This document shows positions 49,554 through 49,951 of a DNA stretch of 64,000 bases, in pieces. Source of the stretch: Saprospiraceae bacterium (GTDB taxonomy: Bacteria; Bacteroidota; Bacteroidia; Chitinophagales; Saprospiraceae); assembly GCA_020627705.1 (NCBI GenBank), contig JAHDGJ010000016.1:3796-67795 (forward strand). The letters are read 5' to 3'. The position numbers and the translations under genes were made by a program. Numbering within the stretch: position 1 is the stretch's first letter; every line of letters starts with the position of its first letter. The notes under the pieces are model-generated. The model was given only the letters and a program-made list of their open reading frames with translations, was not told the DNA's origin and did not search any database.

Positions 49554-49561
49554 TATATTTG
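49554..49561 (+). promoter_or_regulatory. Candidate -7 box of the original tRNA-fMet promoter
   Basis: TATATTTG matches TAnnTTTG and lies 22 nt before the truncated tRNA 5' copy; the -33 TTG is not evident. It implies that the promoter now drives tRNA fragment, endonuclease gene and intact tRNA together. Confidence 0.4.
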
Positions 49562-49571
49562 CAGTCCCGAA

Positions 49572-49603
49572 AAAAGAAACATCGCGGGGTGGAGCAGTTG
49601 GTA
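49572..49603 (+). repeat. Truncated duplicate of the tRNA-fMet 5' end (left repeat)
   Basis: 32 bp identical to 49868-49899: 11 nt of leader plus the first 21 nt of tRNA-fMet (acceptor 5' strand, D-stem 5' strand and most of the D-loop). After it the sequence departs into a small hairpin (ATTCGCC AAA GGCGAAT) and the endonuclease gene. It cannot form a tRNA. Confidence 0.9.
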
Positions 49604-49639
49604 TTCGCCAAAGGCGAATCATAACCTAACCAAAGGCAA

Positions 49640-49900
49640 TTGATTTATACCGTTTACATTTTAAAGTCAAAAAAGTTTGACAAGATTTATACAGGCTATA
49701 CAAGTGATTTGATTTCAAGATTTCGTTCACACAATAGTTTGTCAAAAAAAGGATATACCAAAAAATTTAGACCTTGGGAAGTATTGTATTGTGAGTATTA
49801 TGATGAAACAGCAAAAGCAATAAAGCGCGAAAAGTGGTTAAAGAGCGTAGTTGGTCGTAATTTTATTAAAAGAAACATCGCGGGGTGGAGCAGTTGGTAG
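49640..49900 (+). CDS. Small GIY-YIG endonuclease inserted at tRNA-fMet
   Basis: 86 residues from a TTG start, which gives MIYTVYILKSKKFDKIYTGY as in UPF0213/YhbQ-like GIY-YIG proteins; an in-frame stop 16 nt upstream excludes a longer form. GIY-YIG elements: YTVYIL, YTGYTSDLISRFRSHN (catalytic Arg), and the later Glu of KREKWLKS. The last 7 codons are tRNA sequence: the coding region runs into the tRNA-fMet gene and stops at TAG in the D-loop. Family members include DNA repair-type and homing endonucleases. The flanking 32-bp repeats favour a mobile, homing-like role here. Confidence 0.85.
   Translation: MIYTVYILKSKKFDKIYTGYTSDLISRFRSHNSLSKKGYTKKFRPWEVLYCEYYDETAKAIKREKWLKSVVGRNFIKRNIAGWSSW
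49868..49899 (+). repeat. Right copy of the 32-bp repeat, part of the intact tRNA-fMet
   Basis: Identical to 49572-49603; continues into the complete tRNA. Confidence 0.9.
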
Positions 49901-49951
49901 CTCGTCGGGCTCATAACCCGAAGGTCGTAGGTTCAAGTCCTGCCCCCGCTA
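49879..49951 (+). tRNA. tRNA-fMet (CAT), initiator
   Basis: 73 nt, CCA not encoded. Acceptor stem 49879-49885 pairs with 49944-49950 except the first pair, which is C-T: the unpaired 1-72 position of bacterial initiator tRNAs. The anticodon stem ends in three G-C pairs (GGG 49907-49909 with CCC 49917-49919), also an initiator hallmark; anticodon CAT at 49912-49914. T-stem 49927-49931 with 49939-49943 carries one G-T pair. Confidence 0.95.

Follow-up and report, generated by a model that had tools for sequence, protein, structure and literature searches.

The window, a 64,000-nucleotide stretch of a contig from a Saprospiraceae bacterium, contains a single tRNA gene, encoding the initiator tRNA-fMet (49879-49952), which is also the one copy of the initiator tRNA found, as far as the sequence is readable, in a 98.7%-complete assembly. 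Immediately 5' of it lies a small GIY-YIG gene, preceded in turn by a second, broken copy of the tRNA 5' end. The features of the locus are as follows.

49554..49561, + strand: TATATTTG, putative Bacteroidota -7-type promoter element; sole match to TAnnTTTG in 49400-49950
49572..49603, + strand: left 32-bp repeat (exact), 11-nt leader plus tRNA-fMet nt 1-21; native 5' end and start of the pseudo-tRNA
49603..49619, + strand: palindrome ATTCGCCAAAGGCGAAT, in place of tRNA nt 21-33 (AGCTCGTCGGGCT)
49620..49626, + strand: CATAACC, anticodon-loop remnant kept in the pseudo-tRNA
49640..49900, + strand: GIY-YIG gene, 86 aa, TTG start; PF01541
49868..49899, + strand: right 32-bp repeat (exact), duplicated leader plus tRNA-fMet nt 1-21
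49879..49952, + strand: intact initiator tRNA gene, tRNA-fMet (CAU), 63.7 bits

No exact direct repeat of this length is expected in shuffled sequence. A first-pass annotation of this DNA had described a 32-bp repeat flanking an endonuclease gene, had placed its right copy within an intact tRNA and had read the stop codon of the gene as a TAG internal to that tRNA, all of which proved correct: the stop codon (49898-49900) coincides with tRNA nt 20-22, and the DNA encoding the C-terminal tail of the protein, IAGWSSW plus stop, consists of the tRNA leader and tRNA nt 1-22. The left copy, which the same annotation called truncated, is indeed broken, but it is not cut off at nt 21. After tRNA nt 1-20 it passes into ATTCGCCAAAGGCGAAT, a perfect 17-nt palindrome occurring once in the window and substituting for nt 21-33, and then into the anticodon-loop segment CATAACC, 3' of which similarity to the remaining tRNA is weak and unconvincing and gives no reliable alignment. 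The replaced segment, AGCTCGTCGGGCT, is itself a 5-bp quasi-palindrome. Between the two tRNA copies the GIY-YIG ORF stands alone. The internal palindrome had escaped the first reading, as had the range of tRNA isotypes, the occurrence on both sides of the tRNA and the tandem arrays described below.

The 86-aa product matches PF01541 over residues 3-72 (56 bits, cutoff 22.6), and its residues of catalytic type (Y6, Y17, R27, H31 and E64) are invariant in 14 relatives; this conserved set of Tyr, Tyr, Arg, His and Glu places it in the GIY-YIG nuclease superfamily, within the UPF0213/SLX1-like branch. A profile search of the PDB retrieved UPF0213 (E=5.6e-11) and SLX1 (E=1.9e-6), and comparison of an AlphaFold model (pLDDT 87.8) with known structures likewise ranked UPF0213 and SLX1 first, I-TevI being much weaker. 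PF01541 alone was found in the protein, with no second, DNA-binding domain, and PHROG and NCBIfam searches returned no match. It is a single-domain UPF0213/SLX1-like GIY-YIG protein, unlike the typical homing endonuclease with its DNA-binding module, and nuclease activity is predicted from its sequence. SLX1 is a branched-DNA nuclease; UPF0213 proteins are YhbQ-like.

The TAnnTTTG match at 49554 precedes the broken copy and is 325 nt away from the intact tRNA. Among 25 relatives whose tRNA-fMet locus was examined, 20 have such a match 19-101 nt 5' of the gene, most of them at 19-54 nt. At independent loci of the same layout (the 5' type defined below, with Asp, Arg, Leu and Met targets) the nearest match is mostly ~320-435 nt upstream, before the pseudo-copy. 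TATATTTG is probably the native tRNA-fMet promoter, now situated 5' of the broken copy; the earlier proposal that the tRNA had been separated from its presumed promoter is supported, the left copy having retained it.

Relatives of the element and their tRNA targets

Relatives of the GIY-YIG gene were present in 147 of 299 sampled genomes of the order, many genomes bearing 2-10 copies. Among 91 places in this sample with enough flanking sequence, an intact tRNA gene lay within 450 bp in 79 (~1.4% expected by chance), and gene and tRNA were on the same strand in 79 of 79. The targets comprise fMet, elongator Met, Val, Ala, Arg, Leu, Asp, Asn, Glu, Phe, Pro and Ser isotypes, among others. As a rule, the GIY-YIG frame has the intact tRNA on one side and, on the other, a pseudo-copy of it with a short palindrome, examples being TCCGCC..GGCGGA, TCCCGA..TCGGGA and CCTGCCTGCCGGCAGGCAGG. 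Two orders occur: a 3' type (57 cases), in which the intact tRNA and its terminator are followed by the GIY-YIG gene and a pseudo-copy containing the 3' part, and a 5' type (20 cases, including the window), in which a pseudo-copy containing the 5' part precedes the gene and the intact tRNA. Dozens of loci share this anatomy, and they come from many families and assemblies, complete chromosomes included. A small GIY-YIG clade (L113, L140, L141, L144 and L147) has neither tRNA, rRNA nor any further Rfam RNA in its vicinity; an association with rRNA was sought at the GIY-YIG loci lacking a tRNA, where Rfam gave no match.

A junction pattern of the pseudo-tRNA-Met, TCATATCCGCC..GGCGGACG, designed with no regard to the nuclease, was run against 84,980 species genomes, where it matched at least 116 places. 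Among the 80 loci listed from these, nearly all in Bacteroidota, a same-strand intact tRNA-Met was near 48, a GIY-YIG gene near 43 and both near 33; many of the remaining listed loci are interrupted by contig ends. The exact pattern is patchy, occurring in 8 of 297 genomes of a sample of the phylum. In viral collections it was found in two viral contigs only, and the protein in none. A phage or plasmid origin was considered and rejected, no close relative being found among records of phages or plasmids.

A tree built from 100 GIY-YIG proteins has few columns and weak deep forks, and clustering alone is claimed from it: the isotype of the neighboring tRNA is strongly clustered, requiring 47 changes compared with 71.6 after shuffling (none of 200 shuffles as low). 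Groups correspond to Met, Val, Ala, Arg and Asn, several of them extending across different host families. The two edges of the palindrome could be mapped onto the intact tRNA for 52 distinct segments, not all independent because of tRNA conservation. In 32 of them the replaced segment was an inverted repeat or a tRNA arm cut exactly at its base, against 3.7 expected if segments were placed at random within that tRNA. The palindrome stands in for the entire anticodon arm (28-44) at Ala, Val, Arg, Leu and some Met loci, for the entire D arm (10-26) at others and for ACCNNNNGGT at most Met loci. Native loops are occasionally retained, and at some Arg and Leu loci the palindrome is purely an insertion.

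Tandem arrays are frequent, with units of 90-120 bp or ~340 bp. One (L219) has six ~120-bp pseudo-tRNA units 5' of tRNA-fMet, and another (L230) reads tRNA-GIY-pseudo-GIY-pseudo-GIY-pseudo-GIY. Numerous pseudo-tRNA units lack an ORF in cis and look like non-autonomous derivatives. Within L219, the unit nearest the intact tRNA has the anticodon-arm palindrome only, and units farther away have an additional one in the D arm, which suggests stepwise accumulation.

The genome containing the window has a second GIY-YIG gene, of the 3' type at tRNA-Asn and located at a contig end (L075, G000:C15); the tRNA-Asn is cut by the contig end, and the pseudo-tRNA-Asn has two palindromes and a duplicated terminator. 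Two further tRNA loci of this genome have repeated palindrome units but no GIY-YIG gene in cis: five copies of CCGACAGCTCCGTCTGTCGG lie 3' of tRNA-Phe (L004, G000:C21), and duplicated tRNA 3' ends with palindromes follow Val and Pro at tRNA-Val(gac)/tRNA-Pro(ggg) (L010, G000:C19).

Comparison of tRNA-fMet loci among relatives, as the first-pass annotation had recommended, revealed clean loci in the window's own genus and family, and the 32-bp 5' copy was confined to the window genome among 61 genomes searched with this tRNA. No same-species pair of occupied and empty sites was found for the window locus, and the clean locus from the same genus (G001) is non-syntenic. Other genera supply such comparisons. 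In genus g137, G230 has an element at tRNA-Val and G238, G202 and G255 do not; the flanks of G230 and G238 align on both sides and converge on a single tRNA in G238. The terminator of the distal pseudo-copy in G230 resembles that of G238 almost letter for letter, and the terminator behind the intact, proximal tRNA differs from the native one, indicating a native distal half and a proximal half that arrived with the insert. Genus g116 gives a second case: G318 has an element at tRNA-fMet, and seven congeners are clean before the same downstream gene. In G015, of the window's family, the same thiolase gene as in the window lies upstream of tRNA-fMet and the promoter is at its normal position; the locus lacks a 5' element and has one of the 3' type instead. 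The two halves at a locus usually match the host's own tRNA and are too conserved to point to a donor. An ORF inserted in a gene, a duplicated gene end and a displaced native end, the hallmarks of the fungal mORFs discussed below, were found in the window, in G230 compared with G238 and in G318 compared with its congeners. Of the earlier view that an endonuclease had inserted with repair of its target, as homing elements do, insertion and restoration are thus backed by clean loci and displaced halves; the nuclease is not a typical homing endonuclease, and homing itself is a probable reading of these arrangements.

A proposed mechanism and its rivals

We favor the view, with a probability of about 0.72, that the locus is a selfish, target-restoring GIY-YIG element of tRNA genes. 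Comparison of sequences establishes the features on which this view is built: the anatomy, the family association, the empty sites, the displaced native ends (in two relatives), the isotype clades and the replacement of hairpins. From these we infer cleavage of the tRNA gene, mobility and read-through transcription. The small nuclease gene would carry along one half of its target tRNA; the nuclease would cut the tRNA gene, recombination would copy the element in, and the carried 5' half (in sister elements, the 3' half and terminator) would complete the interrupted gene, so that a working tRNA survives. The displaced native half would stay at the far end as a pseudo-tRNA, disarmed by the palindrome that replaces an internal hairpin segment. 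The window would represent the 5' version, ordered as promoter, broken 5' end with palindrome, GIY-YIG gene and intact tRNA-fMet, in which the initiator tRNA would be transcribed through the nuclease gene and then freed by normal 5' processing; the host would consequently be unable to silence the element easily. Repeated cutting and recombination at the regenerated tRNA could give rise to tandem arrays and to pseudo-tRNA units lacking an ORF.

Counting against this scheme, a nuclease recognizing plain tRNA sequence should cut its own locus, since an intact tRNA is regenerated beside the element. The usual match of both halves to the host's own tRNA, the numerous ORF-less pseudo-tRNA units and the failure to find a same-species pair for the window locus also weigh against it. 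A tentative and rather doubtful elaboration is that the SLX1-like enzyme recognizes tRNA-gene hairpins in single-stranded DNA and cuts an arm at its base, causing the arm to be swapped for the hairpin of the element. Because the nearest nucleases are structure-specific, cutting at hairpin bases is an attractive, if unproven, cause of the arm exchange.

The duplications might alternatively reflect segmental amplification rather than homing, the nuclease breaking the locus and recombination between short repeats duplicating tRNA and nuclease gene locally, with pseudo-copies as decayed duplicates and no dedicated insertion. The tandem arrays, with their 90-120 bp or ~340 bp units, are in keeping with this, and there is a precedent in phage T6 SegB, with its tandem repeats of tRNA and truncated segB and its tRNA/segB microhomology (PMC13096335). 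It would nonetheless leave unexplained the isolated single insertions beside clean congeners, the GIY-YIG clades that track tRNA identity across families and the exact replacement of a segment by a palindrome, and we judge it unlikely. Exact replacement of native hairpins would also be in keeping with the palindromes themselves being the mobile, REP-like entities, the GIY-YIG protein serving as a helper like the RAYT transposases and tRNA genes being favored landing sites on account of their hairpins. Several genomes do contain 4-22 palindromes of a similar kind each, some of them away from the GIY-YIG/tRNA loci, and the fold of the protein is closest to the structure-specific SLX1. The unit, however, is without an HUH/Y1 transposase, for many palindromes elsewhere no neighboring GIY-YIG gene is known, and duplicated tRNA halves are not accounted for by such mobility itself; we consider this improbable to a greater degree. 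Contig ends often fall at such repeats, as might be expected if the arrangement were an assembly artefact, or else ordinary decay or chance had left a tRNA duplicate with a hitchhiking chromosomal GIY-YIG gene. Identical anatomy at dozens of loci from many families and assemblies, including complete chromosomes, and a 32-bp repeat beyond chance expectation make this very improbable at the window, and as a general account it is refuted by the family anatomy, the pattern scan and the association with tRNA at 79 of 91 places.

A target-restoring element, the explanation we prefer, points to widespread and apparently undescribed minimal mobile elements, ~0.3 kb in size with one 85-aa gene, that would act as parasites of essential tRNA genes throughout the Bacteroidota, some of them lying between promoter and tRNA such that the host must transcribe them. 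Such an element would give orphan UPF0213/YhbQ-like GIY-YIG proteins a natural role, and it raises the question of the mechanism by which a tRNA arm is swapped, base for base, for a palindrome. If hairpin swapping is true, these would make up a class of arm-swapping mobile elements for which tRNA genes serve as universal docking sites, and an essential tRNA would depend on transcription of a parasite. We found no description of Bacteroidota elements combining GIY-YIG gene, tRNA and palindrome in the open literature (subscription journals may hold one), and this large family, which probably invades tRNA genes across the phylum, is apparently undescribed.

Comparison with known systems

Islands and phages that integrate into tRNA genes employ a tyrosine integrase and an attB within the tRNA. 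They resemble the present elements in that a carried part of the tRNA restores the gene, and differ in that the elements have no integrase, insert only ~0.3 kb and restore 5' halves as well; with the GIY-YIG ORF as the sole gene between the tRNA copies, a tRNA-integrating island was rejected as an identity for the locus. REP/RAYT systems and other bacterial palindromic repeats (PMC3733652) consist of short multi-copy palindromes associated with an HUH tyrosine transposase. Both have an enzyme of mobility type next to short palindromes that recur several times in a genome, but here the enzyme is of GIY-YIG type and the palindromes occupy defined positions inside pseudo-tRNAs; a REPtron was likewise rejected, no HUH tyrosine transposase being next to the palindromes.

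Group I introns with homing endonucleases are known in cyanobacterial tRNA-fMet, according to a reference given in PMC3984707. The target gene and region are identical, but in the elements described here the tRNA gene is duplicated and not spliced, and a group I intron or its remnant was rejected for the window, where Rfam finds the tRNA alone. As a separate observation, five loci of the window's family (L060-L064, in G009, G013, G017, G018 and G023) have an insert of ~300-480 nt in the anticodon loop of tRNA-fMet, between U33 and C34; Rfam identifies group I introns in L060-L063 (58-66 bits), the similar-looking L064 falling below threshold, and several such introns in tRNA-fMet thus occur within one Bacteroidota family.

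Closer parallels are found in two other systems. SegB of phage T6, a free-standing GIY-YIG homing endonuclease of T-even phages, is encoded beside tRNA genes and cuts within them, driving the formation of tandem repeats of tRNA and truncated segB; the 5' end of the tRNA and the 3' end of segB share microhomology (PMC13096335). The association of a GIY-YIG nuclease with tRNA genes (79 of 91 places, same strand) is shared; the bacterial elements differ in residing on chromosomes, in encoding a ~85-aa single domain of UPF0213/SLX1 type with no C-terminal DNA-binding module, and in having isotype-linked clades, pseudo-tRNAs with palindromes and an ORF bracketed by a duplicated tRNA half. The mORFs of fungal mitochondria, in the account of PMC3630166 citing the Allomyces atp6 case, insert in atp6, atp9, cox2 and nad3 with a replacement C-terminus, displacing the native end. 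Here too an endonuclease ORF lies in an essential gene and brings a gene end that restores it, the displaced native end matching relatives; unlike mORFs, the target is a bacterial tRNA gene, either half is replaceable, the displaced copy is recognizable by its palindromes, and arrays are frequent. Our reading would extend target-restoring endonuclease elements to bacterial tRNA genes. The elements combine features of SegB and mORFs, but are single-domain, chromosomal, isotype-linked and tied to palindrome-bearing pseudo-tRNAs, and their exchange of hairpins may be something beyond a variation on target-restoring endonuclease elements.
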